Of a DNA stretch of 64,000 bases, positions 14,211 through 62,945 are shown piece by piece. The position numbers and the translations under genes are program-made. The stretch's first letter is position 1, and the number at the start of each line of letters is the position of its first letter. The notes under the pieces are model-generated. The model worked only from the letters and a program-made list of their open reading frames with translations, had not been told where the DNA came from and did not search any database. This DNA comes from Lentibacillus sp. JNUCC-1. Its GTDB lineage: Bacteria > Bacillota > Bacilli > Bacillales > Amphibacillaceae. Location: the NCBI RefSeq assembly GCF_009741735.1, contig NZ_WHOH01000001.1, positions 434,001 to 498,000 of the forward strand, in the 5' to 3' direction.

Positions 14211-14437
14211 AAGCTCGGAGAAAACACGGAGACTCCAGCGGGAAAATAAACCTCGGTGAAACCCCACAGCATGGTATAGGGGAAGGAAGGCTAAGAACGC
14301 GACGTCTTGTCGCAAAGCCTTCATGATCCACTTCCTGTGGGCACGAGGCTCAGCAGCGCTCGCGGAAAGTGCAGTGTTTTCCCAGAGCGGATGCCAGAAG
14401 CAGTCATACAATTCTTCGTTCGTTCGCTGTTTGTGTC
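14211..14437 (+). repeat. Structured intergenic repeat, copy A (long-core subtype, left part missing)
   Basis: The core begins CTCGGAGAAAACACGGAGAC and ends GTGTTTTCCCAGAG; these ends pair to close a long hairpin. The tail GCCAGAAGCAGTCAT and a TTCGCTGTTTGTGTC end are shared with the other copies. A ~60-base insert in the middle of the core is shared with copy D only. The left module seen in copies B-D is absent. It fills most of the 336-base gap between trmL and the amidase gene. Short frames inside it are not genes. Confidence 0.8.
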
Positions 14438-14459
14438 TTAGTACGCATATAAGGGTGTG

Positions 14460-15302
14460 TCAGCCGATGTGGAAGAATTTGTACTGGGTGTCGGGGGTCC
14501 AGGCTAGAGAGTCTTCGTATGACCAGTAACGCATGCGGCTGTTATCTGTGTGGGCGTTGACGAGAGGCATGCCGTTATTGTCTTTGCTGACAACTATGGT
14601 GTTGTGGTCCCACCTGCCGTCGCCCTGGAAATCATAGCAAATAATGTCTCCCAGCTCCAATTCACTCGCCTCACTGACTTCCGACCCTTTAAGACCTTGT
14701 GTTGCCCCACTTAGATACCACCGCAGCGAATGGGCGACAGACCAGCTGTAACTCCAATTGTCGCCTTGATACCACCAGCCTCTATCCCGTTTAGGGGCGC
14801 CATGCATTGGCGCGCCTCCAGCATACAGGCATTGGGAAACATAATTTGTACAATCCACATCGAAGCGCCGATATGCGGGGTTATAGCTGTTCCACCACCG
14901 CTCAGCATATTTCACAGCAGCCTGTCGATCATAGGTGAACCTTTGATGTGCTTCAGGGCTTATTTCCCTTGTCAGCACTGGCGATGTCTCCTCATCCGCT
15001 GACGAAATCCCGCATATCCGGTGATGAACAACGTTTCCTCTTTCCACATTAAAAACAAAAGGAACCGAAAGCTCTTCAATATAAAAGTGATCCCTTTTTT
15101 TCAAGAGAATGGACAGATGCATAAGATATTCATGTTCAGCAGTGGGGGCATAACGCAAAATTCGATACAATTCCCCGCGTCCCCGCACTCGAAGCATTTC
15201 ATATCCTCTTTGGTGGTACACCGTACACTTTTTATGCCACCACGCATCACGCTTATTTTCATTCTCAAACATACGCATCCAGATATTCTGAAGTTGGTCC
15301 AA
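14460..15302 (-). CDS. YhbB-like protein with C-terminal amidase domain
   Basis: About 280 residues. The C-terminal ~150 residues match the putative amidase domain family (PF12671 type): YDRQAAVKYAERWWNSYN, then DCTNYVSQCLYAGG with the likely catalytic Cys, and a later WDHNTIVV with a likely His. There is no signal peptide. The likely start is TTG at 15302, seven bases after GGGGAGGG; a longer frame to 15347 lacks a ribosome binding site. B. subtilis yhbB has the same place beside yhbA and cspR. Substrate unknown; wall peptide hydrolysis is a guess from the domain. Confidence 0.8.
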   Translation of the reverse strand: MDQLQNIWMRMFENENKRDAWWHKKCTVYHQRGYEMLRVRGRGELYRILRYAPTAEHEYLMHLSILLKKRDHFYIEELSVPFVFNVERGNVVHHRICGISSADEETSPVLTREISPEAHQRFTYDRQAAVKYAERWWNSYNPAYRRFDVDCTNYVSQCLYAGGAPMHGAPKRDRGWWYQGDNWSYSWSVAHSLRWYLSGATQGLKGSEVSEASELELGDIICYDFQGDGRWDHNTIVVSKDNNGMPLVNAHTDNSRMRYWSYEDSLAWTPDTQYKFFHIG

Positions 15303-15356
15303 TTGCAATCCCTCCCCTTTATATTTATGCCGGGAGGGCTTGCACATATTTATAAT

Positions 15357-15896
15357 TTAAGACCTGTGCAAAGACACGCGGTCTAGTTGTTCTTGTTCAT
15401 GTTTCAGAAGGAACTCCTTTTTATCAAGTCCCCCATTGTAGCCAACAAGCCCGCCTTTTTTTCCGACTACACGATGACATGGGACAACGATCGACAATGG
15501 ATTTTTATTAACCGCACCACCTACAGCCCGGACTGCTTTTGGCTTGTTAATGATTTCAGCAATGTCTTTATAGGATCTGGTGCCCCCATAGGGAAGCGTC
15601 ATATAAAGTGCCTGCCACACTTTTTTCTGAAAGTCTGTTCCATAGTAATAAAAAGGGAACGAGAAATTAAACAGCTTCCCCTCAAAATAGTCCCCAAGTT
15701 CAGCCGCTGCTAGATCAATGGCATTATTGGAATTCGGTAAAAAATCTGTACTTCCGATCTGCCGGCTGCTCCACGAATCCCAGACTGGTTTCAGATCAGA
15801 ATAAGGTCCATAGTCGATCCGCACCACATGGGTGTCACTTCCAGCTATTGTTATTGGACCAAGTGGCGTTCTCGTCTCTTTGTATAGCAACTTCAT
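15357..15896 (-). CDS. ogt: Methylated-DNA--protein-cysteine S-methyltransferase
   Basis: 179 residues with the active-site motif IVVPCHRVVG (Cys near residue 140) and the preceding helix-turn-helix AEIINKPKAVRAVGGAVNKN. It transfers O6-alkyl groups from guanine to its own Cys in a suicidal reaction. It reads leftward 9 bases after queG and is probably co-transcribed with it. Confidence 0.95.
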   Translation of the reverse strand: MKLLYKETRTPLGPITIAGSDTHVVRIDYGPYSDLKPVWDSWSSRQIGSTDFLPNSNNAIDLAAAELGDYFEGKLFNFSFPFYYYGTDFQKKVWQALYMTLPYGGTRSYKDIAEIINKPKAVRAVGGAVNKNPLSIVVPCHRVVGKKGGLVGYNGGLDKKEFLLKHEQEQLDRVSLHRS

Positions 15897-15905
15897 CGTT
15901 TCCCC

Positions 15906-17066
15906 TCACTCCCTCGCTTTATCCGCTTGTAAGTGGCTGGCTTCAAATTGGAGCCCCTTGTCCATTTCAAATAGAACATCTTCATCTGTTTCATTTTCCA
16001 TTGCTTTTTTTATAGCAGCAAATGCTTCATCTGTCCCTATTTTGCCAAGCGTCCAGGCTGCAGTGCCACGCATCACAGGTCGTACATCCTCGGTCATTAC
16101 ATGAATGATGTCAGGAACAGCAGTTGTTTCTTTATAATGAGCAAGAGCCAATAGAGCATTGCGCTGCAAAGGTTTTTTACCCCGCCATGAGCCGGCCACG
16201 TGTCCAAATGTTACTTTAAACTGTCTGTTGGAAATCGTCAAAAGCGGTACAAGTTTTGGTTTAGCCACCTCGGGTTCTGGTTCAAGTTCTGGATGCAGGT
16301 GAAAGTCCACTTTCTTATTATAAGGGCAAACAACCTGACATGTATCATATCCGTACAGGGCATTTCCGATTTTGGAGCGGTAATCATCTGGAAGAAAATC
16401 CTTTGTTTGGGTTAGAAACGCCAGACACTTCTGGGCATTCAGCCGGCCGCCTTCAATGAGCGCACCTGTTGGGCAGGCATCCAGGCATTTCGTACAATCT
16501 CCACAGCCATCTTCAAGCGGCTGATCCGGTTCAAAAGAAATATTTGTCAGCATTTCTCCCAAATATACATATGAGCCGAATTCCGGTGTGATAATGGCTG
16601 TGTTTTTTCCGCTGAAGCCAATACCTGCCCGTTCAGCTACAGCGCGATCAGATAACTCGCCTGTGTCTACCATAATTTTGGTTTCTGCTTCTGGTTTCTG
16701 TTCTTTAATAAAAGCAGCAAGCTGCTCTAATTTATCTCTTAACACAACATGATAATCTGTGCCCCATGAGGCACGGCAGAAGATGCCCCGGCGGTTGCCT
16801 TTTTCACCTTTTGGCGGATTCGGCATACGGGAGGGATAGGCGATGGCAATCGAAAGGATCGACTGAGCTTCTGTGAACAAACGTTTTGGTTCGGTTCGTT
16901 CTTCAATACTCCCTTTTTCAAATCCAGATTGATAGCCAAGTTCTTGCTGTTCTTTCAGTCTGTTTTTTAATGCTGTAAAAACGTCAGCTGTCGTAAAACC
17001 GATCTTATCAATGCCAATTGATTTACTGTAAGCAATAATCTTCTTTTTCAATGATGCTTCAGACAT
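15906..17066 (-). CDS. queG: Epoxyqueuosine reductase QueG
   Basis: 386 residues. Two [4Fe-4S] cluster motifs are present, CGDCTKCLDACPTGAL near residue 190 and CQVVCPYNK near 245, after the cobalamin-binding N-terminal DUF1730 region. The C-terminal ~100 residues are HEAT-like repeats that bind tRNA in this family. It makes the last step of queuosine synthesis in tRNA. Start ATG follows GAAAGGAGG. B. subtilis homologue: yhbA. Confidence 0.96.
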   Translation of the reverse strand: MSEASLKKKIIAYSKSIGIDKIGFTTADVFTALKNRLKEQQELGYQSGFEKGSIEERTEPKRLFTEAQSILSIAIAYPSRMPNPPKGEKGNRRGIFCRASWGTDYHVVLRDKLEQLAAFIKEQKPEAETKIMVDTGELSDRAVAERAGIGFSGKNTAIITPEFGSYVYLGEMLTNISFEPDQPLEDGCGDCTKCLDACPTGALIEGGRLNAQKCLAFLTQTKDFLPDDYRSKIGNALYGYDTCQVVCPYNKKVDFHLHPELEPEPEVAKPKLVPLLTISNRQFKVTFGHVAGSWRGKKPLQRNALLALAHYKETTAVPDIIHVMTEDVRPVMRGTAAWTLGKIGTDEAFAAIKKAMENETDEDVLFEMDKGLQFEASHLQADKARE

Positions 17067-17105
17067 CGGGGCACCTCCTTTCGATTGTTCGGTAGTTTTT
17101 GTACG

Positions 17106-18809
17106 TTAGGCTTGTATCACCAGGGCTGTGCGCATCCGGTTAAACACTGCTGCGATTTCATGCCGGCGAGGACGTGCCAAGTCACCTGGGTGCTGCTTTG
17201 GAAAAGGTGTAAATGATGCCAGGCCTTTTTGATCGATCTGGCTTTCAATCTCGTCAAGCATGTCATTTAGCGTTTGTCCTTTCAAGCTACCTCGTTGTTC
17301 CAAATGCTGGATGATTTCAGCAATCATGCGTGTCTGGGATGCATCCACAAGTTGTTCCGTTTCATTGAAAGAAATATCCGTGCGCCCCATTAAAATATGG
17401 GTCTGTCCCTTAGCTTGTGTCTTAGAACGTTTGCCTTTTTGAGTTTGCAGTGTTTTCGGGTCAAATGACCGGTGCGTGATTGGACCGAATGTTGAGTCAG
17501 TATTGATGTTCTGTTTTAATGGATCTGCCTCCATAATCTTCTTAGCTTGCTGGGTGACATCATAAGGCAAATATTCATCCATCATAATAACAGTATCTGC
17601 AACAGAGAAATAATCACCCGAACCACCCATGACGAGCATGGTGGACACGTCAAGGTCATCAGATAGTTGTTTGATTTTCTGAATGAACGGGGTGATCGGT
17701 TCTTTATCTTTATGAACCAACTCCTGCATACGGTGGTCTCTGATCATAAAGTTCGTCGCACTTGTATCTTCATCGACAAGAAGGATTGATGCACCTGTTT
17801 CAAGCGCCTCCATGACGTTCGCAGCTTGTGATGTGCTCCCGCTTGCATTCTCAGTCGAAAAGTTATGCGTGTCCTGTCCATGAGGCAAATTATTAATGAA
17901 AGGTGAAATGTTAACCCCCGTTATATTTCGTCCATCTTCTGCCCGGATTTTAACTGCATCAGGGTCCGTCAGAACATATTCCCTACCATCTTCAGCTATA
18001 TGATGGTAAATACCACGCTCAATCGCTTGCAGAAGGGTGCTTTTTCCGTGGTAGCCGCCTCCCACGATTAATGTGATCCCTTTTCCGACAGCCATCCCTT
18101 TTACAGGGGACGCTTGATGAGGCACAGAAATCTCCGTTTCCAGTTCAGGCGGACTTTGAAAGGGGACTGCATTGTTCATTGGTCTGTCACTAATACCGCT
18201 TTCCCTAGGGAGAATCGATCCATTAGCAATAAAAGCAATCCAGCCTTTATCTGACATTTCTTTTCGAATCGCCTGTTGCTGATCAGCAAGCTGTACAGCC
18301 GATTCAATCGTTTCATCTTTTACTGTTAAAATGGAATGCTTCATAATATCGATCATCGCATCCGTTAACAGTTTGATCGCTTCTCCGCCGTTGATACGGC
18401 GTCCGTTAGCAGGCAGCCCTACTGACAGACATACGGTAATTTTTTCAGGAGTAATCTGCACTGCACTTCTTTCCAGCACTTCCTGGTGAGGGGCGTCAAA
18501 TTGAATACGTCCGCTTTTACCTGAACCTTTTACCGTTGTTCGGTTATGGCGAATGGCTTTGCTTACGGATCGGGCCAGTGTGTCTTCTGCAGCTGTTTGA
18601 CGGTAACGCTCTTGAAACCAATTGTCTTTCAGCGCTCGCTTGTCTGTCGGGATCACAAGTCTGATTTTTGAGGGAGCTGCAAAGGGGTCTCCTTGAACGT
18701 GATCTATATACAATGTGAAATTGTTGAATTCATAAGTTCCCCTAATGTCTTTATATGCTTTATAACTGTTCCCATCGATTCGCTTCAACGTTTGCAAAAG
18801 TTTATTCAT
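17106..18809 (-). CDS. ABC-class ATPase of unknown role (PF09818 family)
   Basis: 567 residues, a normal length for this family of soluble ABC-type ATPases with no membrane partner. Walker A is GGGYHGKSTLLQAIERG near residue 250, followed by a Walker B-like ILLVDEDTSATNFM near 335 and a D-loop-like GGSGDY. It stands alone, between queG and tRNA-Gly. Function is not established in the family; nucleic-acid-related roles have been suggested. SD is GCGAGGTATT. Confidence 0.85.
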   Translation of the reverse strand: MNKLLQTLKRIDGNSYKAYKDIRGTYEFNNFTLYIDHVQGDPFAAPSKIRLVIPTDKRALKDNWFQERYRQTAAEDTLARSVSKAIRHNRTTVKGSGKSGRIQFDAPHQEVLERSAVQITPEKITVCLSVGLPANGRRINGGEAIKLLTDAMIDIMKHSILTVKDETIESAVQLADQQQAIRKEMSDKGWIAFIANGSILPRESGISDRPMNNAVPFQSPPELETEISVPHQASPVKGMAVGKGITLIVGGGYHGKSTLLQAIERGIYHHIAEDGREYVLTDPDAVKIRAEDGRNITGVNISPFINNLPHGQDTHNFSTENASGSTSQAANVMEALETGASILLVDEDTSATNFMIRDHRMQELVHKDKEPITPFIQKIKQLSDDLDVSTMLVMGGSGDYFSVADTVIMMDEYLPYDVTQQAKKIMEADPLKQNINTDSTFGPITHRSFDPKTLQTQKGKRSKTQAKGQTHILMGRTDISFNETEQLVDASQTRMIAEIIQHLEQRGSLKGQTLNDMLDEIESQIDQKGLASFTPFPKQHPGDLARPRRHEIAAVFNRMRTALVIQA

Positions 18810-18905
18810 AAGTTAAATACCTCGCTTTGCTTAAGTTGTATGTTAATCGATTGCCGATCAGCTTTCTGTTTAAACCTATCATACACCCAGCCAGTAGGCT
18901 GAACA

Positions 18906-18942
18906 ATAAAAAACGCAACACCTCGTGGTCAGATCCACGAGA
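18906..18942 (-). terminator. Terminator downstream of tRNA-Gly
   Basis: CTCGTGG and CCACGAG stem with 6-base loop; TTTTTT follows after GTGTTGCG on the minus strand. Confidence 0.65.
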
Positions 18943-18959
18943 TACTGCGTTGGTATGTA

Positions 18960-19033
18960 TGGAGCGGGTGAAGGGAATCGAACCCTCGTCATCAGCTTGG
19001 AAGGCTGAGGTTTTACCACTAAACTACACCCGC
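18960..19033 (-). tRNA. tRNA-Gly (anticodon UCC)
   Basis: The minus strand folds as a complete cloverleaf: acceptor GCGGGTG / CACCCGC, D-arm with AGTGGTAAAA, anticodon loop CTTCCAA giving UCC, T-arm GAGGG-TTCGATT-CCCTT, discriminator T and an encoded CCA. It stands alone. It is 71 nt before CCA. Confidence 0.97.
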
Positions 19034-19186
19034 AAAGAGCTTTGCTTTTGACGTATTAAGTAGTATATCAGGAAAAACGACATGATTCAACATTTTTTTG
19101 GTTAAAAAAAATGGAGGTGCTGTAAGATGCATAATACTTAGCACAAAACCCAATTATTGTCTTTCCAAAAAAAGAAATAATCATGC

Positions 19187-19192
19187 TATAAT
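19187..19192 (+). promoter_or_regulatory. -10 box upstream of the D-amino acid aminotransferase gene
   Basis: A perfect TATAAT lies 60 bases before the start; no good -35 at 16-18 bases, the nearest being TTTCCA at 19. Confidence 0.4.
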
Positions 19193-19252
19193 GGTCATGC
19201 ATACTTTCATACAATTACATAGAATGTAAGTTTAGCAATTAGGAGGCTAACA

Positions 19253-20134
19253 ATGACCCAATATCCAATCATCATGTCCCAAACAGGTTTTACCCATAAG
19301 GATAATCTAACGTATCCCTTTGAAGAACGCGGCCTGCAATTTGGTGATGGTGTTTATGAAGTAATCCGCATCTATAATGGCCAGTATGATTTATTTGACG
19401 AGCATGTCAACAGACTATTTCAATCGGCAGAAGCTATTAAACTTGAACTGCCGTTTACGAACGAAGAGCTTAAGACATTGCTTATTGAACTTCTGGAGAA
19501 GAATGATATGAGAGCAGACGGCACGGTTTACTTACAAGCAACACGCGGCTCTGCTCCAAGAAATCATCTATTCCCGGCAGATGCGAAAACAAATGTGTAT
19601 GCTTATATCAATGACTTGCCGCGCAACGAAGAGCACCTGGAGCATGGTGTCTCCACTATAACCAAACCCGACGTGCGTTGGAGCTATTGCTACATTAAAA
19701 GCTTGAACTTATTGCCAAATGTGCTTGCCAAACAGGAAGCTCGCCAACAAGGTTGCTATGAAGCCATCTTTCACATTGATGGTGAAGTCACAGAGTGCAC
19801 CTCGTCAAATGTCTATTTGGTACACGCTGGAAAGATTTATACGTTCCCTGCGACTAAACGCATTTTGCACGGTTGTGTACGCAGGCGTGTTGAAAACTAC
19901 GCAGATGAGTTAGGCATCCCTTTCGTTGAAGACGGTTTCACAGTTGAAGAGATTACCACAGCTGACGAAATGTTTTTGACGAGTACAACATCAGAGATCA
20001 TTCCAATTACAAAAGTTGATCAGACAATCGTTGCTGACGGTAAGCCTGGCCCTATTACACGAAAACTTCAAGAACGTTTCAGTGCACAAATACAAACATA
20101 CAGAAAAAAGGATCCTCAGTTTATTCAATCATAG
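19253..20134 (+). CDS. dat: D-amino acid (D-alanine) aminotransferase
   Basis: 293 residues, fold-type IV PLP enzyme. Motifs: FEERGLQFGDGVYEVIR near residue 22-38, the PLP lysine in YIKSLNLL (about 146), and YEAIFHIDGEVTECTSSNV for phosphate binding. The RGLQFGDGVYE pattern separates Dat from IlvE. It interconverts D-alanine and D-glutamate, feeding wall peptide synthesis. The ATG has AGGAGGCTAAC upstream. It has its own terminator. Confidence 0.93.
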   Translation: MTQYPIIMSQTGFTHKDNLTYPFEERGLQFGDGVYEVIRIYNGQYDLFDEHVNRLFQSAEAIKLELPFTNEELKTLLIELLEKNDMRADGTVYLQATRGSAPRNHLFPADAKTNVYAYINDLPRNEEHLEHGVSTITKPDVRWSYCYIKSLNLLPNVLAKQEARQQGCYEAIFHIDGEVTECTSSNVYLVHAGKIYTFPATKRILHGCVRRRVENYADELGIPFVEDGFTVEEITTADEMFLTSTTSEIIPITKVDQTIVADGKPGPITRKLQERFSAQIQTYRKKDPQFIQS

Positions 20135-20189
20135 GTCCAAAACTCTGTTCCTTGTTTAATAGAAATTATGTAAATGACGGATACAAAAT

Positions 20190-20224
20190 AAGACCCGGAT
20201 ACCATTGAGTGTTCGGGTCTTTAT
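20190..20224 (+). terminator. Terminator of dat
   Basis: AGACCCGGAT and GTTCGGGTCT stem followed by TTTATAT. Confidence 0.75.
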
Positions 20225-20309
20225 ATCTTTAAGATTTGATTCGCCACCCGAAATAGATTAAAATAAAGAAAAGTTGTTATAATCTGAAGCGAAATGAGGA
20301 GGAATTAGC

Positions 20310-22316: not shown

Positions 22317-22322
22317 GTTTTG

Positions 22323-26898: not shown

Positions 26899-26930
26899 TG
26901 TATCATTATAAGCATAATATAAGTAAACTG

Positions 26931-27070
26931 CGAACTAATTAGATCCACTATAATTTTATGAGAGGGTCGTGATTTGCGCTGCGGGAAGTCGCTTTAACTT
27001 CATCACAGTTCAAGTGCGACATCTGTTCAAGAAAACTACTTTCACACTTAGTCGACCCTCCCTAATGTAC
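26931..27070 (+). repeat. Structured intergenic repeat, copy B, left part
   Basis: Starts near AAGTAAACTGCGAACTAATT, which is the reverse complement of the right end of copy C, and continues with GTCGTGATTTGCGCTGCGGG and TCGACCCTCCCTAATGTAC. The IS3-family element cuts it after GTAC at 27067-27070. The rest resumes at 30116. The exact outer end is uncertain by some 15 bases. Confidence 0.8.
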
Positions 27071-27102
27071 TGCACTGGACCCATAAAATTGGACACTCGG
27101 TT

Positions 27103-27196
27103 TTATGCATTTAACTCAAAGAGCTTACGATAAGCTACTGGGGTTTTTCGATTTAATCTTGATTTGATTCTTAAATGATTGTAGTAATAAATATAG
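27103..27196 (-). pseudogene. C-terminal fragment of IS3-family OrfB
   Basis: The minus strand encodes YIYYYNHLRIKSRLNRKTP and on to FELNA-stop, the standard end of IS150-type OrfB. It is the continuation of the frame that breaks after KKELED at 28805, separated by the IS256-family element. Confidence 0.85.
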
Positions 27197-27316
27197 GAGA
27201 GTGTAAAATAGTTTGTGTAAATAGAAATGACGATTAAACGATCTTCATTTAAAAAAGGAAGCCCCTTTCTGTAGAATAGAGTTAGCGACAACATTCACAG
27301 AAAAGAGGTCTTCCCT

Positions 27317-28510
27317 ATGAACCATCTTACTACAGATTTAATCGAAGCACTAGCCCAAAAACAAGACATTGAAGAGGTTTTTCGTCGCCATCTTGAGACA
27401 GCTGTTAATCAGTTGTTAAAACATGAACTAACTGCTTTTCTGGATTATGAACCCTATGCCCGCGAAGGATTCCATTCTGGTAACTCACGGAACGGATTCT
27501 ACGATCGCACCTTTAAAACAGAATATGGTGAACTTCAGCTTGCGATCCCCAGAGATCGAAATGGTGAATTCCAACCGGAAACTCTCGCTCCGTATCAGCG
27601 TTCCAATGACACGTTGGAACAGTTTGTCATTCATCTTTATGAAAAAGGCATCACAACCGATGAAATTGCAGATTTGATGGAGCGAATGTATGGACATCAT
27701 TATTCCAGACAAACCGTATCCAACTTCACGCAGCTGGTTGCGGAAGATGTACAGGCTTTTCATGAACGGAAACTGGAGAAACGATATGTCTGCATCTATC
27801 TGGATGCAACGCACATTCCCATTCGTCGTCAAACGGTTGAAAAGGAAGCCGTTTATATTGCCATCGGCATTACCGAGGAAGGAACGAAAGAAGTCCTAGA
27901 CTTCACCATCGCACCAACAGAATCGACGCATGTTTGGGAAGAAATGATCCAACACCTACAAGCGAGAGGATTGGAACAAGTCCTTCTATTCATTTCGGAC
28001 GGTTTACCCGGCATGACGGACGCCATTCACCGTGTTTATCCAAAAGCCAAGCATCAGGTCTGCTGTGTTCATGTTGCCCGCAACATTGCCAGTAAAGTGC
28101 GGGTGAAAGACCGCCCAGCCATTCTGGATGATTTTAAAAACGTCTACCAAGCCAAGGATCGGGACGAAGCCGTGGATGCCTTGAATGCATTCCAGGACAA
28201 ATGGAAAAAGATTTATCCACGTGTGATTGACGCGGTGGTTGGGAACGAACAGCTATTAACGTTTTATGATTTCCCTGCTTCCATTCGCCGTAGTATTTAC
28301 TCAACCAATCTCATCGAAGCATTTAATAAGGAAATTAAGCGATACGTGAAACGCAAAGAACAATTTCCCAACGAAGATGCCTTGGAGCGATTCCTGGTTA
28401 CTCAATTCTTAGATTATAATCAAAAATTCGGTATCCGTTGCCACAGGGGATTTGATCAAGCTAAGCCAGAATTACTGCATATGTTTGAAGATCAACAGGT
28501 GCAGGCTTAA
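27317..28510 (+). CDS. IS256-family (mutator type) transposase
   Basis: 397 residues, full length. DDE residues sit in CIYLDATHIP (near 167), ISDGLPGM (near 234) and STNLIEAFNKEIK (near 335), with the CCVHVARN Cys-His motif between. ATG follows AGAAAAGAGGTC. No frameshift or stop is visible, so the element may still move. Confidence 0.95.
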   Translation: MNHLTTDLIEALAQKQDIEEVFRRHLETAVNQLLKHELTAFLDYEPYAREGFHSGNSRNGFYDRTFKTEYGELQLAIPRDRNGEFQPETLAPYQRSNDTLEQFVIHLYEKGITTDEIADLMERMYGHHYSRQTVSNFTQLVAEDVQAFHERKLEKRYVCIYLDATHIPIRRQTVEKEAVYIAIGITEEGTKEVLDFTIAPTESTHVWEEMIQHLQARGLEQVLLFISDGLPGMTDAIHRVYPKAKHQVCCVHVARNIASKVRVKDRPAILDDFKNVYQAKDRDEAVDALNAFQDKWKKIYPRVIDAVVGNEQLLTFYDFPASIRRSIYSTNLIEAFNKEIKRYVKRKEQFPNEDALERFLVTQFLDYNQKFGIRCHRGFDQAKPELLHMFEDQQVQA

Positions 28511-28525
28511 TCTCAAGTTCGCCAT

Positions 28526-28694
28526 CCTTGACCATGTTTCGCGGTCGTGGTGGTGCATGAATGGAGAGATGGCAAAAATAAAGCCCTAAGGGCTCCATCC
28601 GCACCACGACCGATCTTTTTCTCCGCTCTCGCTGGTCGGAAACCCTGAATCCAACATAACAAATCGCAAAGAAGAGGCAACAATATGGTCAAGG
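28526..28694 (+). repeat. Palindromic block between transposase gene and right end of the IS256-family element
   Basis: Outer arms CCTTGACCAT (28526-28535) and ATGGTCAAGG (28685-28694) are perfect complements. Inside, CGGTCGTGGT and its complement (28542 and 28601-28612), ATGGAG/CTCCAT and AGCCCT/AGGGCT nest further. No protein frame fits. It may be a structured RNA, a small palindromic insertion or a cis-acting end. The function is unknown. Confidence 0.6.
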
Positions 28695-28804
28695 ACAAGC
28701 AGCTGTCACTGTGGCTCAAAAAGAAATTTTCCTGAATTTACCTATCAGCTAGCCGTTCTACCAGAACAGGGTTATTTACACAAAATTATTGACGCACCCA
28801 AATA

Positions 28805-29554
28805 TTAGTCTTCCAGTTCTTTTTTAAAGTGCTCAATGCTGTCAAATTCCTCTAAATACAGGAATTCATATTTTAGTATCCCAAAAAAGTTTTCTATGAC
28901 GGCATTATCATAACAGTTCCCCTTGCGGGACATGCTTTGTGTAATGTTATGTTGCTCGAGCTTTTTCCGATATCGGGGGATTCGATAATGCCAGCCCTGA
29001 TCAGAATGAATTAACAGTTCGTCGCTGTCCTTTTTGTGTTCCAAGGCTTGATCTAACATCTTTTCCACCAGATCGAACGTAGGCCTGTTTTGAAGTGTGT
29101 ACGTAATGATTTCCCCGTTGAACAGGTCCAATACAGGTGAAAGGTACAGTTTTTCGCCAAACAGCCTGAATTCCGTTACATCAGTAACCCATTTTAGATT
29201 CGGCTTTTCTGCTTTGAAGTTACGCTCAAGAACGTTTGGTGCTGCCTTGCCTGATGAGCCTTTATACGACTTGTATTTTTTCATTCGGACGACACAATGG
29301 ATCCCGAGCTCTCTCATTAACCGAAGTACTTTTTTTTCATTTATTTCATGGCCTTTTTCTTTAAGGACATCTGTTATGCGACGGTAGCCAAGACGGCCTC
29401 TGTGTCGGTGATAAATAAAATTAATTCTTCTTTTCCACTTGCGATCAGGGTCCGGTTGTTTTAAAAGATTGACGTTGTAGTAATAAGTGTTTCTTTTAAT
29501 ACCTGCAACCTTTACAAGCTTACTCACCGGGAATTTATGCCTTAGTTCAAGTAT
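28805..29554 (-). pseudogene. IS3-family OrfB (integrase catalytic part), truncated by IS256-family insertion
   Basis: Reads from the -1 frame after OrfA (KVILELRHKF) through HTH_21 and the rve domain: WVTDVTEF, HSDQGWHYRIP and the DDE glutamate in NAVIENFFG. It runs to KKELED, then stops in the TSD. The last ~31 codons lie on the far side of the inner element. The OrfA-OrfB junction has an A4CA4G slip site (about 29556-29568), as expected for -1 frameshifting. Confidence 0.85.
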
Positions 29555-30063
29555 TACTTTTGTTTTGGTTTTGTTGGTGATTGGTCTTCTTGAACCAAGG
29601 CTCTCAACTTTTTTAAATAAGCATTCTCCATACGAAGGTATTCGAGCTCTTTTTCCATAGCTTCTATTGATTGATTCTCAGGTTCCTGCTTGTTCTTTTG
29701 AGTGCGAGAATTCATAACAGAAGGCCCCTTTCTTGATTCAAGGGCATCTTCTCCACTTTTCTCCCACTTTTTCCTCCACCTTCGAACCATAGAAGGATCA
29801 GGTATATGGAAAATGGCAGATGCCTCTCGAATGGAATAATGCGTTTCATTAATGAATTCTATTACCTTTAGTTTAAAGGCTCTCGAATAGTTTGTATAGG
29901 GAAAATCAAATGCCTTATCACCATGGTGTTGAAATAACAACACCCAATACCTAATCACAGATTCATCAATGTTGAGTTTATTTGCCAGGTCTCGGTAACT
30001 GAACTTTCCGCCCACATAGTCTTTAGCTATTTGTAACTTAAAAACTTTGGTAAACTTGGACAT
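29554..30063 (-). CDS. IS3-family OrfA (DNA-binding part)
   Basis: 169 residues with two helix-turn-helix regions (FSYRDLANKLNIDESVIRYW and YSIREASAIFHIPDPSMVRR) and a C-terminal leucine-rich coiled coil (EAMEKELEYLRMENAYLKKL) that mediates dimerisation in this family. ATG follows TAGGAGGTATAAAA. Complete. Confidence 0.92.
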   Translation of the reverse strand: MSKFTKVFKLQIAKDYVGGKFSYRDLANKLNIDESVIRYWVLLFQHHGDKAFDFPYTNYSRAFKLKVIEFINETHYSIREASAIFHIPDPSMVRRWRKKWEKSGEDALESRKGPSVMNSRTQKNKQEPENQSIEAMEKELEYLRMENAYLKKLRALVQEDQSPTKPKQK

Positions 30064-30115
30064 TTTTATACCTCCTAATGTTGGATATGGTGTCCAACAT
30101 TAGGGGTGCAGCTCA

Positions 30116-30413
30116 GTACGCACTGCGGGGTCTTCGGACTCGTGCTTTTCCCGCAGGAGTCGACTTCCCTCCGCTCCAATCACTCTATGTAATTCAGTGG
30201 CTTGGACGGTTCTGCACACGTATTAATTTGGGACATTAACACTCCTTACCAAGCTCGGGGAAAACACGGAGACTCCTGTGGGAGCAAAAGCCTAGATGAG
30301 ACCCCGTAGCGCGCAGCGCGAGGAGGCTCATCAGCGCCCACTGGACGCGGAGTGTTTTCCCCGAGCGGTTGCCAGAAGCAGTCATTCAAGTTTGCATTAG
30401 TTCACTAAAAGCT
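30116..30413 (+). repeat. Structured intergenic repeat, copy B, right part
   Basis: Resumes with the GTAC duplication, then CTGCGGGGTCTTCGGACTCG as in copies C and D, and the core from 30254: CTCGGGGAAAACAC pairs with GTGTTTTCCCCGAG. Short-core subtype, nearly identical to copy C over ~130 bases. Ends in GCCAGAAGCAGTCATTCAAG. The 408 bases up to the response regulator hold no gene. Confidence 0.85.
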
Positions 30414-37657: not shown

Positions 37658-37851
37658 TCTTCATATGTAACGAGCCACAAATGCCGTATTGATCATAGAA
37701 AGTTTTAAACCACCACATCTTCCAGGTGGGTGTCTGCAGAAACCATCCTGTCCTCCGCTCACAAACGGCTTGACATTGAGGCTCCGATGTTAAACTCCCT
37801 AATATTTAGGTAGAGGTTTAAACTTAAATAAATACGCACATCGTAGCTTGT
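37658..37851 (-). ncRNA. ssrS: 6S RNA
   Basis: The minus-strand transcript from about 37851 pairs its two ends over a long range: CAAGCTACGATGTGCGTAT with ATACGGCATTTGTGGCTCG, then AAGTTTAAACC with GGTTTAAAACTT. This leaves a large central bubble (ACATCGGAGCC side and CCCACC side) and an apical stem, the secondary structure by which 6S RNA mimics an open promoter and holds RNA polymerase. Length ~190 nt fits Bacillus 6S RNAs. It has its own promoter and terminator and no protein frame. It lies between glycerate kinase and MFS pump genes. Confidence 0.75.
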
Positions 37852-37857
37852 AGTTCC

Positions 37858-43591: not shown

Positions 43592-44148
43592 GACACAAAC
43601 TACGAACTAGAGAAAACTTGAATGACTGCTTCTGGCAACTAACTACCACAATGAGAGTATCGTGATTTGCGCTCCGGGAAGTCGCTTTAACTTTATCACA
43701 GCTCAAGTGCGACATCTGTTCAAGAAAACCACTTTCACAGTGTCTTCTAGCCGCGGGCACGGCCTCAGCCTCCTTGCCCCGGCAAGGGGTATGTCGACGT
43801 TGCCCGCAAAGGGCGGTTTTAGTCGACCCTCCCTAATGTAACGCTGTGGGGTCTTCGGACTCGTGCTGTTCCCGCAGGAGTCGACTTCCCTCCGCTCCAA
43901 TCACTCTATGTAATTCAGAGGCTTGGACGGTTCTACTCACATAAGAGTTAGAGAATAACCTCTCATGTCTAGCTCGGGGAAAACACGGAGACTCCCGTGG
44001 GAGCAAAAGCCTAGATGAGACCCCACAGCGCGCAGCGCGAGGAGGCTCATCAGCGCCCACTGGACGCGGAGTGTTTTCCCCGAGCGGTTGCCAGTGGCAG
44101 TCATAAAATCCCAAATTAGATCTAACTAGTTAGTTCGCTGTTTACTTA
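43592..44148 (+). repeat. Structured intergenic repeat, copy C (full length, short-core subtype)
   Basis: Left end ACTACGAACTAGAGAAAACT then ATGACTGCTTCTGGCAAC, which is the reverse complement of the right-end module of the same family (GTTGCCAGAAGCAGTCAT). Left module GTGATTTGCGCTCCGGGAAG, middle TCTTCGGACTCGTGCTG, core 43973-44090 bounded by CTCGGGGAAAACAC / GTGTTTTCCCCGAG, right end TAGTTAGTTCGCTGTTTACTT. It fills the gap between the oxidoreductase and fdhD genes. A run of C residues lies just left of it (43489-43497). Confidence 0.85.
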
Positions 44149-55010: not shown

Positions 55011-55015
55011 CAACG

Positions 55016-55060: not shown

Positions 55061-55064
55061 ATAT

Positions 55065-56985: not shown

Positions 56986-57001
56986 GTTTTCAACTCCCTT
57001 T

Positions 57002-58342
57002 TTAATGATCTCTCTGTTTAAAATCTCCCTTGTCGACTGTCCATTCGAATGCTTTTTCTTCTAACTGATACACACGTCGCGGCCGGCCCCGCTGACCTGA
57101 TTCTTCGCCGACCACTCTTACAAACCCGGCCCGTTCCAGCGCTTGTAAAACACGCCTGGCGTTGCGTTCAGTTCCTTGAAGCCAGCCTGCCAGTTCCTGA
57201 GCGGTAAATGTCTGTTTTTCATGATGTTGAGCCAATGTAAACACGCGCATCGCTTGTGTTGCGCTGACTTCGAGTCCCTCAAATTTCTCTCGGACTATGC
57301 GCTGTTGAAGCAGTGTGCTTTCTGATGAGCCTCTGAGTTCACTCACCTCCTTGTCTTCATTAACGATGATCAGATTGTGTCGGTTATCCTGTCTCGCATA
57401 ATCAAAAGCAATATGCACATGTTCATCAGCTTCAAGAACGGTATGTCCATAGCCAATACCAACCCGGACACCAAGACTGCTATGCCTTTTAATGTCCTCG
57501 ACAAACGTTTCAAGTGAGTGTGTGCGACGGTAGAATTCAAGTTCGCCGCGGGTCGTATACACAACATATTTTCCATTGCCAATCTTAGCGAGTGACCCAT
57601 TAACTTTTTCAGTAAATTGAAGGAGCTGGTGGTGCAATTCAAGTTCTGAATGCTGAATTTTATAAGGAATAAATCCGTCTTCTATAGCTGATGGGTAAAT
57701 GACTTCAAAACCAATGATTACGAGTTGTTTCTTTCTGTATGATAATTTCTGCTGGCGCTGGCGCAGGTAGTCAATGGCGAGCTGGACGGCCAGTTCAGAT
57801 GGAATGACTCTGTACACAGGGATGTTTCGAGCCTGCAGTTGGTGATAGACACCATTGATACATGTAATTGCGACAGTGGTTTCATTTGCACGGTAAAGAG
57901 CTTCGTGAAATGCAACAAGCTTATCTTTAGGCACATATCCGGTTCCGGGATATTGATGAATCTTCAGGTGATTAATATCTGTGCCGGGTTTAACGGATCG
58001 CAGCTGGCTTTCATCAATAGAGTCGAGACTAATGGATGGAATTAGCTGTTGTCTTTCCATCGAGGCAGTTAGCAGAACGCCCAATAGACTGGAACCGTGT
58101 AGCGTCGCATAAATGCCTTCATCTGGATTGATAAAGTCATTTTGTACCGCAAAGTCATAGGGCACGGGACCGGAAAAAAACCACTGATCCACCAAATGTC
58201 GATTTCTCTCAATAATAATCCCCGTATCCTCAGTCGCTTGATACACAAATGGTTTGATATCAACATCTGTGTATTGCTGGCCGACTTCCATCACCCGTTG
58301 AACTGAATCAGCAGGACCGATGGCACCTATTCGAATTGGCAT
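57002..58342 (-). CDS. Transcriptional regulator: sensor, GGDEF/GCH III-like middle and winged HTH
   Basis: 446 residues. Residues ~1-200 have no motif I know. About 215-330 look like a GGDEF or GTP cyclohydrolase III-type fold (NGSLAKIGNGKYVVYTTRG, GVRVGIGYGHTVLEADEHV) but lack the GGDEF signature. About 355-435 are a winged HTH (FTAQELAGWLQGTERNARRVLQALERAGFVRVV). It overlaps the upstream hydrolase gene by 16 bases. It probably controls the abg-like operon, with a purine/pterin-like or folate-related ligand as the natural guess. Confidence 0.65.
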   Translation of the reverse strand: MPIRIGAIGPADSVQRVMEVGQQYTDVDIKPFVYQATEDTGIIIERNRHLVDQWFFSGPVPYDFAVQNDFINPDEGIYATLHGSSLLGVLLTASMERQQLIPSISLDSIDESQLRSVKPGTDINHLKIHQYPGTGYVPKDKLVAFHEALYRANETTVAITCINGVYHQLQARNIPVYRVIPSELAVQLAIDYLRQRQQKLSYRKKQLVIIGFEVIYPSAIEDGFIPYKIQHSELELHHQLLQFTEKVNGSLAKIGNGKYVVYTTRGELEFYRRTHSLETFVEDIKRHSSLGVRVGIGYGHTVLEADEHVHIAFDYARQDNRHNLIIVNEDKEVSELRGSSESTLLQQRIVREKFEGLEVSATQAMRVFTLAQHHEKQTFTAQELAGWLQGTERNARRVLQALERAGFVRVVGEESGQRGRPRRVYQLEEKAFEWTVDKGDFKQRDH

Positions 58343-59583
58343 GGCGCTTCACCAGCTTCAGATTCAAAATACGCCTTCAAAACCTGAACACCTTTTTCCA
58401 AATTTTCAAGAGAAGCGTATTCTGCAGGGTGGTGGCTAATGCCGTTCTTACAAGGGATAAATATAAGGCCCGCAGGCCATTTCACTGCCATATTCATAAC
58501 GTCATGACCCGCCCCGCTGTGCATGGGATGGATCGTCAGCCCGGCTAATTCTCCCGCTTTATGCAACTTTCTGCTGATGTCCCGACCCAAGAAGATAGAG
58601 GCGTTATTCACCCGTTCCTCCACATGTATCTCGACATCATGAACCCGGGATAATTCCAGACACTCCCGTTTAATGGCGGTCGCAACATGTTCTTTCAGAT
58701 CATCATTAACACTGCGAATATCAATGCCCATTTCCACTTTTCCCGGTATGACATTCATGGCGTTTGGCTCTAATGACAGCATACTGACTGTTGCTACAAC
58801 GGGAATGGTTTCGTGTCTGTTGCATTGTTTTGCATAATCATGAACAAACTGGACGAGCGGACTGATCGCGACAAGTGCGTCTTGCCGATGATCCATCGGG
58901 GTCGTTCCTGTATGACCTGCCTGACCTTCCGCTGTAATCACCAGTCGGATCGGGGTGGCAATACCTTCGACAATTCCTATATCTTTACCGGCATTCTCAA
59001 TAAGCATCCCTTGTTCAATATGCAGTTCAACAAAAGATTTTAGTTCTTCCATGTCTCGTTCAGCATCAGAAAATGCATTCCAGTCAAAACCGCATTGTGT
59101 TACAGCTTCTTTAATCGAAACGCCTTGCTGATCAACCACAGAACCAATCTCAGACGTATGCAATCCGCTCATCGCCTTGCTGCCAAGAGTTGAAATGCCG
59201 AAGCGAGCTGATTCTTCCGAGCGGAACACAATAACTTCTATCGGGTAGTTCGGCTGAAAACGATGGTCTTTCAGCTGCTTCACCGCACCAAGTGCACACA
59301 ATACGCCTGCCAGACCATCATAGCCACCGCCATTGGTGACGGTATCAAGATGTGAGCCTGTAGCAACTGCCGGAAGGTCCGGCGTTGTTCCCTCCCAGCG
59401 GGCTATGACATTTCCCGCCAAGTCCTCACGAATGCTGAGTCCCAGTTCTTTAGAAATTTGTTTAAACATCTCAATAGAAATAGATTCTTCTTTTGAATAA
59501 CCGTGTCGGGTGAAGCCCTTGATGTAATCCATCTCTTGTGTACCATTTAATTTCAACAAATGGGTTTCAAGCCACTTTTGCAT
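58327..59583 (-). CDS. M20 family Zn-dependent amidohydrolase (N-carbamoyl amino acid / allantoate type)
   Basis: 418 residues. Metal and catalytic motifs: GSHLDTVTNGGGYDGLAGV (near 78), RSEESARFG, ELHIEQGMLIE and AGHTGTTPMDHRQDA; SGAGHDVMNMA near the end. This is the HyuC/AmaB (hydantoinase/carbamoylase) branch. The surroundings suggest an aminobenzoyl or folate-derived substrate rather than allantoin. It lies 12 bases downstream of the AbgA-like gene. Confidence 0.88.
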   Translation of the reverse strand: MQKWLETHLLKLNGTQEMDYIKGFTRHGYSKEESISIEMFKQISKELGLSIREDLAGNVIARWEGTTPDLPAVATGSHLDTVTNGGGYDGLAGVLCALGAVKQLKDHRFQPNYPIEVIVFRSEESARFGISTLGSKAMSGLHTSEIGSVVDQQGVSIKEAVTQCGFDWNAFSDAERDMEELKSFVELHIEQGMLIENAGKDIGIVEGIATPIRLVITAEGQAGHTGTTPMDHRQDALVAISPLVQFVHDYAKQCNRHETIPVVATVSMLSLEPNAMNVIPGKVEMGIDIRSVNDDLKEHVATAIKRECLELSRVHDVEIHVEERVNNASIFLGRDISRKLHKAGELAGLTIHPMHSGAGHDVMNMAVKWPAGLIFIPCKNGISHHPAEYASLENLEKGVQVLKAYFESEAGEAPCQFE

Positions 59584-59595
59584 GTGATCCCTCTC

Positions 59596-60915
59596 CTATT
59601 CAATTAAATGACTGCCAAACTCGTTGAGATAAGCAATCATACTTACAAATGCGGCAACTGCTGTCGTCATCGCGTGTTCCTCAAAATCAAAAGCTGGGTG
59701 GTGATGTCCAGCGGGAAGCGGGCTCGGAAACAGCATAAATGTTGCCTTACCGCCCTGTTGCTGCACAGCTTCCATCATGTATGTCACGTCTTCCGAGGCT
59801 CCGAGTTCTCCATGCTCCCAAACATCTGTAACAACAGACGTCTCTTTTAAAGCTTCTGGAATGATTGTTTTCCATACAGGGTCACACTTCCCATTCAATG
59901 CTCTCCCCATCATATTGATGTGTGTTTCAACACCATGTAAATCACCTGAGGCTTTAAGAATACGTTTGGCTTCAGTTTGCATATAATCATCGAGCACCGT
60001 TGTTTCTCCGCGTGTTTCCAAAGCGATATGGGCTGTGTCAGCGATTGCATTACGGCCAGATCCGGCCTTCATAGTGCCAACATTTACGCGTGTTGCCCCG
60101 TCTTTATGACGTGGAATGGCATGCAAGTGCAAAGCGGCAGTCGCTGCGGCGAGAAGAGCATTGTTCCCGGCATTCGGCTCAAGCCCAGAATGAGCTGACT
60201 TGCCTTTAAAATGCACATCCAGTTTTGAACTTGCCAGGAACCTTTCAGTCGTGGCAGCGACTGTACCTGCAGGGGCTTCCATAATCCCAAGATGCCCACT
60301 CAAAAAAAAGTCGACACCCTCAAGCCATCCTTTTTCGACCATTGCTTTGGCACCTTTTCCGCCTTCTTCTGCTGGCTGGAATAATAAAGTATAAGTACCG
60401 GTTAATTGGGTTTTGAATCTGTTAATAAACGCTGCCACAGCAAGACCAATTGAAGTGTGACCATCATGCCCACAAGCATGCATTGCTCCATGATTTTGAG
60501 AGCAAAACCCGTGTTTGACAGGGATATGATCATCAGAATCTGTTTCAATAATCGGCAAGGCATCAATATCAAAACGAAGCGCAATATGAGGCCCTGGCCG
60601 GCCGGTATCCAGCTTTGCAACACAGCCCGTGTGCCCGCCTGACATATGATCGAGCATCTCTACTGGAACACCCGCCTTTGCAGCTTCTTGTTCAGCTGAC
60701 TCGAGGGTCTCCTGATCAGGCACAGCGTATCGACTGTCAGAATCAAGCGCATCTCGTCCGTAGTAAACTGTAAAAGCTGTATTGTTCAATTGGTTGACAA
60801 TGTGCCATGTGGTCACATATTCCGTAAAACCCACTTCTGGGATTGTGTGCAGCATACGTCGGTTTTCAATCAATTCATCCGTTATACCTTCAATAAATTC
60901 ATTGATATCAATCAT
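59596..60915 (-). CDS. abgA: AbgA-like M20 amidohydrolase
   Basis: About 439 residues (E. coli AbgA 436). Metal motif HACGHDGHTSIGLAV (near 150), QPAEEGGKGAKAM (near 188), and a C-terminal SEDVTYMM. The N-terminal ~110 residues carry the extra segment seen in AbgA (GRDALDSDSRYAVPD) and not in simple amidohydrolases. AbgA and AbgB together cleave p-aminobenzoyl-glutamate; here one partner may be replaced by the HyuC-like enzyme. ATG at 60915 follows AAAGGAT. Confidence 0.8.
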   Translation of the reverse strand: MIDINEFIEGITDELIENRRMLHTIPEVGFTEYVTTWHIVNQLNNTAFTVYYGRDALDSDSRYAVPDQETLESAEQEAAKAGVPVEMLDHMSGGHTGCVAKLDTGRPGPHIALRFDIDALPIIETDSDDHIPVKHGFCSQNHGAMHACGHDGHTSIGLAVAAFINRFKTQLTGTYTLLFQPAEEGGKGAKAMVEKGWLEGVDFFLSGHLGIMEAPAGTVAATTERFLASSKLDVHFKGKSAHSGLEPNAGNNALLAAATAALHLHAIPRHKDGATRVNVGTMKAGSGRNAIADTAHIALETRGETTVLDDYMQTEAKRILKASGDLHGVETHINMMGRALNGKCDPVWKTIIPEALKETSVVTDVWEHGELGASEDVTYMMEAVQQQGGKATFMLFPSPLPAGHHHPAFDFEEHAMTTAVAAFVSMIAYLNEFGSHLIE

Positions 60916-62092
60916 AATGACCATCCTTTAAATCTTTCAGAATATCTAAAGCGAGTTGTCTCATCAAGGTAACACCTTTTTCAAGCGCTGCCTCGTCTAG
61001 CATAAATCCGGGGTCGTGAAGCGGCTTTTGTCCTTCTCCAATTGAGGTTCCAAGCCAGTAATAGACACCTGGATATCGTTCCAAAAACCTTCCGAAGTCT
61101 TCCCCCCCTAAGCTGGGGCTTACTTCAGGAACCTGTTGGGCACCGAATTCCCGCGCAGCTGTTTGTTTTACACGCCTAGCCCACCGCTCAGTATTAACTG
61201 TAGCCGGATACCCGTCATAGTATATGATGTTCGCCTCGGCTTGCATTGAACTGGCCACACCCTGGACAACTTCATGGAACCTGTGTTTAATAATGTGTTT
61301 CATAGCATCAGATTGTGTCCGGATCGTTCCCTCCATCACAACTTCATCGGCTATTACATTGTACCGGTAGCCGCCTTCCATTTTTCCGACTGTAATAACG
61401 GCTGGATCAAATGGATTGGCATTTCGACTGACAATGGTCTGCAGCGCGGTGAATATCTGATTTGCAGCAGCCAACGCATCAACTGTGTCATGCGGCATTG
61501 AGGCATGACCGCCAGACCCGCGCACTGTAATTTGGAAGCGGTCGGAGTTGCCCATAATCGGTCCTGGCACAACACCGATCTGGCCAGCTGGAAGTGACGG
61601 CCACACATGCTGTGCCACCAATACATCAGGTTGATGTTCGGCAAAAACGCCGTCTTCCAGCATTTGCGCTGCTCCGCCTGTTGGTGAATCTTCTTCAGCC
61701 GGTTGAAAAATCAACAAAACTTTTCCGGCAATGTTGTGCCGTTCTGCCATCAAAAGCCGACCTGTTCCCAGCAGCATTGCTGTATGAGCATCATGACCAC
61801 AGGCATGCATAACACCGTCAATGGTTGAGCGAAAGGCTTCATCAGTTTTCTCTGTAATTGGGAGAGCGTCAATATCGGCTCTCAATCCCACTGTCGGCCC
61901 GGGTTGATCGCCTTCAATGATGCCAAGTACCCCTGTTCCAGCAAAACCAGTTTGATAGGGGATACCGTATTCAGCGAGTTTCTCTTGTATTTTGCGTGAT
62001 GTTTCATATTCCTCACCAGACAATTCCGGATAGCGGTGTAAATCCCTTCTGAACGCTATAACATCTTTCATGATGTTCATCATATTTGTCAT
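60908..62092 (-). CDS. M20 family amidohydrolase (N-acyl amino acid / hippurate hydrolase type)
   Basis: 394 residues. Metal motifs HACGHDAHTAMLLG (near 104), FQPAEEDSPTGGA (near 138), and SLGGEDFGRFLE near the end. The peptidase family M20D includes AmaA, YxeP and AbgB. It overlaps the AbgA-like gene by 8 bases and is the first gene of the unit. ATG at 62092 follows GGAGAG. The exact acyl group is unknown. Confidence 0.88.
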   Translation of the reverse strand: MTNMMNIMKDVIAFRRDLHRYPELSGEEYETSRKIQEKLAEYGIPYQTGFAGTGVLGIIEGDQPGPTVGLRADIDALPITEKTDEAFRSTIDGVMHACGHDAHTAMLLGTGRLLMAERHNIAGKVLLIFQPAEEDSPTGGAAQMLEDGVFAEHQPDVLVAQHVWPSLPAGQIGVVPGPIMGNSDRFQITVRGSGGHASMPHDTVDALAAANQIFTALQTIVSRNANPFDPAVITVGKMEGGYRYNVIADEVVMEGTIRTQSDAMKHIIKHRFHEVVQGVASSMQAEANIIYYDGYPATVNTERWARRVKQTAAREFGAQQVPEVSPSLGGEDFGRFLERYPGVYYWLGTSIGEGQKPLHDPGFMLDEAALEKGVTLMRQLALDILKDLKDGHYD

Positions 62093-62163
62093 TCATCTCT
62101 CTCCTTGCACAGACTATTCCGTATTTTCATTAGGGAAAATGTCCATATATGTTCCGTTAATCC

Positions 62164-62192
62164 ATAATAGCGCTTACAAACACATTTGTCCA
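62164..62192 (-). promoter_or_regulatory. Promoter of the abg-like operon with overlapping cre-like site
   Basis: TGGACA (62192-62187), 17 bases, TATTAT (62169-62164). In the same stretch TGTAAGCGCTATTA (62178-62165) matches the CcpA cre consensus at all but one core position. CcpA would therefore repress the operon when glucose is present (inference). Confidence 0.6.
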
Positions 62193-62284
62193 GATGTTTT
62201 ATGAAATTTTTTGATAAAACACACAAACATCCCATCAATCCTCCAAACAGAAAACATTATCTCTTGCAAGGACAAAATTTCCCT

Positions 62285-62945
62285 AGACAGCGAACTAACT
62301 AAGCATATTTTGACTGTCACTAAGCCCCTTCATATGTTTAAATGAGTACCGTGATTTCCGCTGCGGGAAGCCGCTTTAACTTTACAACAGCTCAAGTGCG
62401 ACATCTGTTCAATAAACCCACTTTCACAGTGTCTTCTTTGCCAAGGGGCCTGCAGGACGCAGATCGTTCGATGTTGGCGCAGGACGCGCTGGTTTAAATC
62501 GAACATCCCCTAACGCCTCCTTGCCCCTGCAATGGGGTATGTCGACGTTGTCCGAAAAGGACGGTCCCAGTCACCCCTCCTTAATGTCCTCGCTGTGGGA
62601 TCTTCGGACTCGTGCTGTTCCCGCAGGAATCACTTCCCCCCGCTCCAATCACTTTATTTAATTCAGTGGCTTGGACGGTTCTACTCCTATAAGAGTTTGA
62701 GAATAACCTCCCAAACCAAGCTCGGGGGAAACACGGAGACTCCAGTGGGAGAACAAGCCTCGATGAGACCCCGGAGGTCGCTATAGGGGAAGGAAGGCTA
62801 AAACCGCGACGTCCTGTCGCAACACCTTCATGACCCACATCCTGTGGCCCCGAGGCTCAGCAGCGCCCGCGGAAAGCGCAGTGTTTCCCCGAGCGATTGC
62901 TAGAAGCAGTCATTCCAAGTTTTCTCTAGTTACAGTTTGTCTTGT
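62285..62945 (+). repeat. Structured intergenic repeat, copy D (full length, long-core subtype)
   Basis: Left end AGACAGCGAACTAACTAAG and TGACTG, left module CGTGATTTCCGCTGCGGG, then an extra segment with GGACGCAGATCGTTCGATG, the module ATCTTCGGACTCGTGCTGTT, and the core 62721-62893 with the same ~60-base insert as copy A. Right end GCTAGAAGCAGTCATTCC and AGTTTTCTCTAGTTACAG. It occupies the gap between the abg-like operon promoter and the amino acid transporter genes. No gene is inside. Confidence 0.8.

Follow-up and report, generated by a model that had tools for sequence, protein, structure and literature searches.

Miniature inverted-repeat transposable elements (MITEs) are among the closest described counterparts of the element considered here, a repeat present in four copies (A to D) in a 64,000-nucleotide stretch of the Lentibacillus sp. 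JNUCC-1 genome (positions 434001-498000 of contig C1, NZ_WHOH01000001.1, in a three-contig genome of 3.69 Mb; hereafter the window). Like MITEs, the repeat is short, has inverted ends, lacks genes, reaches a high copy number and lies mostly between genes. It differs from them in that neither target duplication nor a partner element was found in its own genome, in that its nested cassettes are exchangeable, and in that sister carriers of its modules elsewhere do duplicate their targets. The BOX elements of pneumococcus are reportedly intergenic and modular as well, with inner modules that may be present or absent; they have another sequence and another host, and are likened here by description rather than by a comparison of sequences. 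Repetitive extragenic palindromes (REP) and bacterial interspersed mosaic elements (BIME), with their REP-associated tyrosine transposases (RAYT), share with the repeat a palindromic, modular and inverted arrangement, and insertion of IS110-family insertion sequences (IS) into REP repeats is likewise known (PMC11208160). The repeats here are larger, however, and the Y1 genes of the genome are not flanked by them. Petrillo et al. (2008, PMC2267715) reported Bhal-1 and Bhal-2 of Bacillus halodurans, stem-loop repeats between genes that measure 74 and 76 bp; they come from a Bacillales genome and are near in size to the inner module of the present repeat, a likeness that again is one of description and not of compared sequences.

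That inner module belongs, by Rfam's own score, to Bacillaceae-1 RNA, which was listed as a candidate RNA by Weinberg et al. in 2010 (PMC2864571) and was counted among the most abundant small RNA (sRNA) families in a 2022 review (PMC9029176). Rfam labels the family "Gene; sRNA," whereas here it is a module of a repeat and stands once alone in a tnpB gene. In the accessible text of the mostly non-subscription literature searched, neither the repeat nor a mobile Bacillaceae-1 module was found described.

The family is real, large, mobile-looking, modular and nested; its general kind is known, and it is undescribed in the literature searched. We consider it quite likely to be a modular, non-autonomous mobile DNA repeat, because its copy number far exceeds that of controls and 63 units have paired inverted ends, because boundaries are seen in close pairs and a congener has an element-free intergene, because modules are nested, cassettes fall into size classes and IS110-family elements land at fixed sites (6/6 and 3/8 copies), and because other ends carry the same modules with target duplications (7/7 and 17/21 loci). 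An initial annotation of the window had proposed a MITE-like, non-autonomous element, and the inverted ends, the gene-less unit, the sharp boundaries and the element-free intergene of the congener agree with that proposal.

A large family bounded by two related ends

The initial annotation had suggested searching the whole genome for further copies, and these are numerous. The right-end pattern CCGAGCGGTTGCCAGAAGCAGTCAT, with at most 3 mismatches permitted, matches the genome 107 times and a left-box pattern 60 times, with 0 matches for the reversed control in either case; the motif matches cluster into 168 cassette-bearing loci in the genome stretches examined. One exact motif of the family was also matched in Aquibacillus halophilus. 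The unit is limited by two related, inverted ends, designated a (GACACAAACTGCGAAC) and b (GTTCGCAGTTTAC when read outward). The sequence GCCAGAAGCAGTCAT, at first taken for the end of the unit, was not borne out as such, the unit continuing to GTTCGCAGTTTGTGTC or GTTCGCAGTTTAC. Unit statistics were drawn from the 63 units in which both ends were recognised. By score, each has one end that is more a-like and another that is more b-like, in directions divided 32 to 31, and lengths range from 249 to 881 bp with a median of 540. These units are short, have inverted terminal repeats and lack a transposase gene, as expected of MITEs; three longer loci that were checked contain IS4-, ISL3- and IS3-family insertions.

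Each unit contains one or two related hairpin cassettes. The R cassette is the core recognised by the initial annotation, CTCGGGGAAAACAC ... GTGTTTTCCCCGAG, and the LM cassette, present in many copies, is related to R and lies in inverted orientation. Among the 100 right ends listed of 107 in total, the R cassette measures 100-116 bases in 60 and 165-190 bases in 23, and is odd or of unmeasured length in 17. The 41 measured LM cassettes form classes of 123-134, 183-187 and 240-244 bases (n = 9, 25 and 7, respectively), which are read as holding none, one and two modules, the inner one decayed. With a simple caller, flanking frames were obtained on both sides of 43 of the 63 units, giving 22 convergent, 16 codirectional and 5 divergent settings; among codirectional genes the units point in either direction (8 vs 8). 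Frames of at least 100 codons, taken as called, overlap 14 of the 63 units. A weaker outer motif, resembling GTTGCTTTT, is seen beyond the ends in some copies and in another genome, G030 (loci L250-L253; G and L numbers are our designations of genomes and loci), and is perhaps a decayed outer element.

All four window copies lie where they had first been placed. The B and C cores indeed lack the core insert common to A and D, and the inverted right end does stand at the left of copy C. That the insert is confined to A and D held for the cores; beyond these, D has a second, inverted module, and C has a decayed one in its LM cassette. Copy B, first given as two segments, is a single copy split by an IS3-family element; it contains IS3 and IS256 genes, and as we read the sequence an IS256-family element seems to be nested in the IS3-family element. 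The features are as follows, in window positions.

14210-14389, plus strand: R cassette of copy A, with Bacillaceae-1 module
14275-14341, plus strand: Bacillaceae-1 (RF01690) in copy A, 66.3 bits
14420-14437, minus strand: a-type end of copy A, 2 mismatches
26922-26945, plus strand: left end of copy B, b-type
27009-27035, plus strand: left box of the LM cassette of copy B
27071-30112, no strand given: IS3-family element with an IS256-family transposase gene inside, splitting copy B; limits approximate, by eye
30253-30366, plus strand: R cassette of copy B, without module
30361-30385, plus strand: right-end motif of copy B, 0 mismatches; outer end beyond it decayed
43592-43609, plus strand: left end of copy C, a-type, 1 mismatch
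43702-43890, plus strand: LM cassette of copy C
43776-43838, minus strand: decayed Bacillaceae-1-like module of copy C, 32.6 bits, below cut-off
43829-43834, no strand given: site in copy C that IS110-family element type 1 hits in other copies
43876-43877, no strand given: site in copy C that IS110-family element type 2 hits in other copies
43973-44088, plus strand: R cassette of copy C, without module
44134-44146, plus strand: right end of copy C, b-type
62285-62300, plus strand: left end of copy D, decayed, by eye
62391-62632, plus strand: LM cassette of copy D, two module units (class 244)
62449-62514, minus strand: Bacillaceae-1 (RF01690), inverted, in the LM cassette of copy D, 52.7 bits
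62720-62897, plus strand: R cassette of copy D, with module
62782-62848, plus strand: Bacillaceae-1 (RF01690) in the R cassette of copy D, 68.2 bits
62889-62945, plus strand: right-end motif (2 mismatches) and decayed outer end of copy D

Bacillaceae-1 RNA as a module of the repeat

The ~60-base insert of copies A and D is Rfam RF01690, Bacillaceae-1 RNA, which has three matches above the curated cut-off in the window (gathering score, 35). The initial annotation knew no name for the repeat and had regarded a match to a known Rfam family as grounds for rejecting it; such a match, and with it a name, was found for the insert alone, and no name for the whole element was found in the literature searched. 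In 21 of the 23 long R cassettes the module begins at the hairpin tip (by eye); of the remaining two, one (187 bases) differs and one was read from the other strand. At least 110 RF01690 matches occur in the genome, and the 56 scoring at least 47 bits were classified. A motif test placed 39 of these in R cassettes, 13 in LM cassettes, 2 in both and 2 in neither. One of the last two, C3:314141, lies by inspection in an LM cassette at another site, which brings cassette membership to 55/56 (54 by motif test and 1 by inspection).

The lone module, at C1:244782-244847 (positions 1501-1566 of L136), interrupts a tnpB gene of IS605 type and is not enclosed by a cassette. Intact homologues occur, and when the locus is compared with one from a plasmid, homology on the left ends 2 bases before the module and on the right resumes 4 bases after it, so that 72 bases stand opposite 13 in the homologue, a net gain of 59. 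In another genome, G029, an extra Bacillaceae-1-like module (61.6 bits) is present at locus L325 and missing at L322, L324 and L326, the difference being ~58 nt (by eye). RF01690 is present in 66 of 100 genomes, the present one included, and several of these hold many copies of equal score. Adjoining the interrupted tnpB gene is a match to the Rfam family BsrG (62.1 bits; gathering score, 55; L136, positions 2179-2453).

Bacillaceae-1 is one module of a modular repeat, and this module is perhaps mobile on its own. With confidence that stops a little short of even, we put forward the more specific proposal that it is a stand-alone, ~60-bp mobile twin hairpin that inserts precisely and without duplication into hairpin tips, repeats and sometimes genes, and that has spread over Bacillales in unrelated MITE-like carriers. 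If this is true, the abundance of Bacillaceae-1 among sRNA families is due to its being a transposable repeat. We regard the reinterpretation of RF01690 as the most valuable part of this work: an unexplained Rfam family gains a home, and a natural system with known empty sites is at hand for studying the transfer of hairpin modules from one mobile element to another, unrelated one.

The same modules between other ends in other genera

Matches to copy C were found in 46 of 61 genomes, the present one included, with at most 10 candidates scored per genome. In G014, the LM-linker-R arrangement is enclosed by TAACGGGTTCTCT ends. Both ends are present at 7 of 9 loci there, and all seven show target duplications, of 9-10 bases in six and of 8 bases (or 10 with one mismatch) in one; a floating test of these seven carriers gave 8-10 bases, vs a mean of 4.0 and a maximum of 5 for mismatched pairs. 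Tandem copies in G014 separated by one-base spacers (L239, L240 and L242) were rejected as a clue to mechanism because the spacers are N; the single-N tandem pieces are therefore likely assembly artefacts in high-copy repeats. By eye, the ends in G023 and G007 resemble AGGCTGGGACA, and those in G030 resemble AAACTGCGACG.

RF01690 is carried in GTGCGTGTTCAAAAAG elements in G029 and G043, where identical 4-mers flank 17 of the 21 loci fetched; of 30 strand-wise comparisons, 26 showed identity, vs 2.9 expected. A further carrier type, GCGCAAGCGCCC ... GGGCGCTGGAGCTAGAC, holds Bacillaceae-1 in G090 (L327-L330). No R-cassette match was found in the loci tested in G029, G043 and G090. A set of 29 Bacillaceae-1 loci, each from a different genome (L293-L321), was checked for R cassettes, and 4 of them showed a match no more than 150 bases from positions 1501-1567; 28 of the 29 were properly tested, the match in L301 lying elsewhere.

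Boundaries, target sites and landing of other elements

The copies at C1:1986124 and C1:2030028 share 443 bp without a difference, and identity stops 6 and 2 bases past the end motifs. It stops near the end motifs in several more close pairs as well, and some pairs match in part only. At the C locus of a congener the flanking genes are kept (77% and 68% DNA identity), and 57 bases, vs 710 here, separate the matching stretches, as in an intergene free of the element. Bases 15-26 outward of both ends show a common preference, nAYTRTnnnTTA, at positions that are not copied along with the unit in close pairs. A palindromic target is the simplest reading of this preference; the palindromy of single target sites beyond the consensus reaches a z of at most 2.1.

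Several observations weigh against a mobile repeat. The congener intergene is too diverged to reveal the exact junction. Target duplication, which the initial annotation had wanted looked for, was absent from the genome in three tests with fixed and floating offsets, observed values equalling those of mismatched pairs. The flank similarity of pooled copies fades over ~60 bp with no abrupt end, which may reflect target preference or a decayed outer element. Movement by a transposase encoded elsewhere, as first suggested, is plausible, yet no autonomous partner and no transposase with matching ends turned up in a search that covered the a-ends of this genome (the 100 matches listed of 104) and the ends in G014. 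The best fixed-offset duplication scores (z of 4.9 and 4.5) were rejected; they came from 8 and 3 units and were isolated among tens of thousands of offsets. A plasmid search gave one weak match to the repeat, a search for carriage by phages gave no match, and one exact motif of the repeat was not found in viral contigs.

Under the mobile-repeat reading, the unit, which holds no gene and is limited by 11-bp subterminal inverted repeats (AAACTGCGAAC) with a few bases outside them, would be spread by a recombinase supplied from elsewhere. In this genome it lies mostly between genes, at sites like the palindrome TAAnnnAYARTn|nAYTRTnnnTTA, and no target duplication is detectable. Nested inside it are one or two imperfectly palindromic cassettes, R and inverted LM, and nested inside these the ~60-nt twin-hairpin module that Rfam knows as Bacillaceae-1 RNA. 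Modules occur between more than one set of ends, the carriers of other genera duplicating their targets, and the repeats act as landing sites for other transposons, chiefly two IS110-family elements.

The first of these elements (type 1, 412-codon frame; L270-L275) lies at the same LM base and in the same orientation in 6 of 6 copies. The second (type 2, 456-codon frame in most; L263-L265) lies at a second LM site in 3 of 8 copies and elsewhere in 5. Two IS110-family elements with fixed natural targets are thus on offer. IS3-, IS4- and ISL3-family elements interrupt further copies of the repeat. The type 2 leader shares words with its target, and a guide match is only suggestive, equally long words being shared by 341 of 2000 shuffles. 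Relatives of the type 2 transposase, 44-78% identical, occur in three viral contigs (L359-L361).

What keeps the pairing and what moves the unit

The initial annotation had also suggested a folded RNA and a test for covariation. An alignment of R cassettes was made with 39 rows, 11 from this genome and 28 from 20 other genomes, after one misoriented and three LM-type rows had been taken from 43. In it, 98.1% of cells pair, and covariation is strong, double changes occurring in 12 of 29 pairs (76 cells in total); none of 500 shuffles reaches four of the five covariation measures, and 3 of 500 reach the fifth. The counts of G-U and A-C are 11 vs 5 of 1131 cells (p of 0.21), and therefore neither strand is preferred in R. 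In Bacillaceae-1, as counted in the 39 of 56 matches that are exactly 67 long, they are 3 vs 4 of 663 cells. RNA families usually have many more G-U intermediates. Folding of single sequences is strong on both strands for the R cassettes of B and C (z of -5.5 to -6.8), moderate for the R cassette of D (-2.8) and the LM cassette of C (-2.9), and weak for the LM cassette of D (-1.35). The pairing that had suggested an RNA is thus preserved by compensatory change, but G-U counts and orientation point to no strand. An RNA role of the cassettes is not shown, because G-U pairs are few and give no strand signal despite strong covariation; an RNA product may nevertheless exist. The lesson is that covariation by itself is no proof of RNA where pairing lacks a strand.

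DNA hairpins most likely underlie the conserved pairing; they would be maintained either by the enzyme that moves the unit or by correction of palindromes as DNA is copied. A version of the latter in which the repeat has no function, the compensatory changes arising by template-switch correction of DNA palindromes and gene conversion among copies, would explain why G-U intermediates are nearly absent beside 76 double-changed cells. We consider it somewhat unlikely, as pairing in R is kept in 20 other genomes of many genera, which would need continued mobility or selection.

As to the mover, subterminal inverted repeats, the absence of target duplication and a palindromic target are IS1111 traits, and all three are seen in this genome. 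The unit might then be descended, in miniature form, from an IS1111/IS110-type element and be mobilised in trans by a recombinase of that kind. Subterminal repeats are ascribed to IS1111 members in the title of a paper cited by PMC11208160. The genome was found to hold 15 IS110-family genes, which fall into two repeated types and a single, however, and in one locus per kind (L263, L270 and L261) the only end motifs are those of the interrupted hosts; such a derivation we hold to be unlikely.

That the repeat is instead a functional non-coding RNA family, with transcribed cassettes and selection on the RNA fold, appears quite unlikely. Strong covariation and the folding of R on both strands speak for it, and the Rfam label of RF01690 implies it; the G-U and A-C counts in both R and Bacillaceae-1, the lack of an orientation preference among units, the interruption of tnpB by the module alone and the weak folding of LM in copy D speak against it. 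Movement of REP-like modules by a Y1 (RAYT-like) transposase is very improbable: it would suit palindromic, intergenic and duplication-free modules, and one Y1 gene of the genome has a frame of 268 aa, but no cassette, end motif or RF01690 match lies at either Y1 locus, and in the control genomes B. subtilis appears with those that have RF01690 and not with those that have PF01797.

Elsewhere in the window, a 6S RNA (RF00013, 77.9 bits) lies at positions 37668-37852 on the minus strand.

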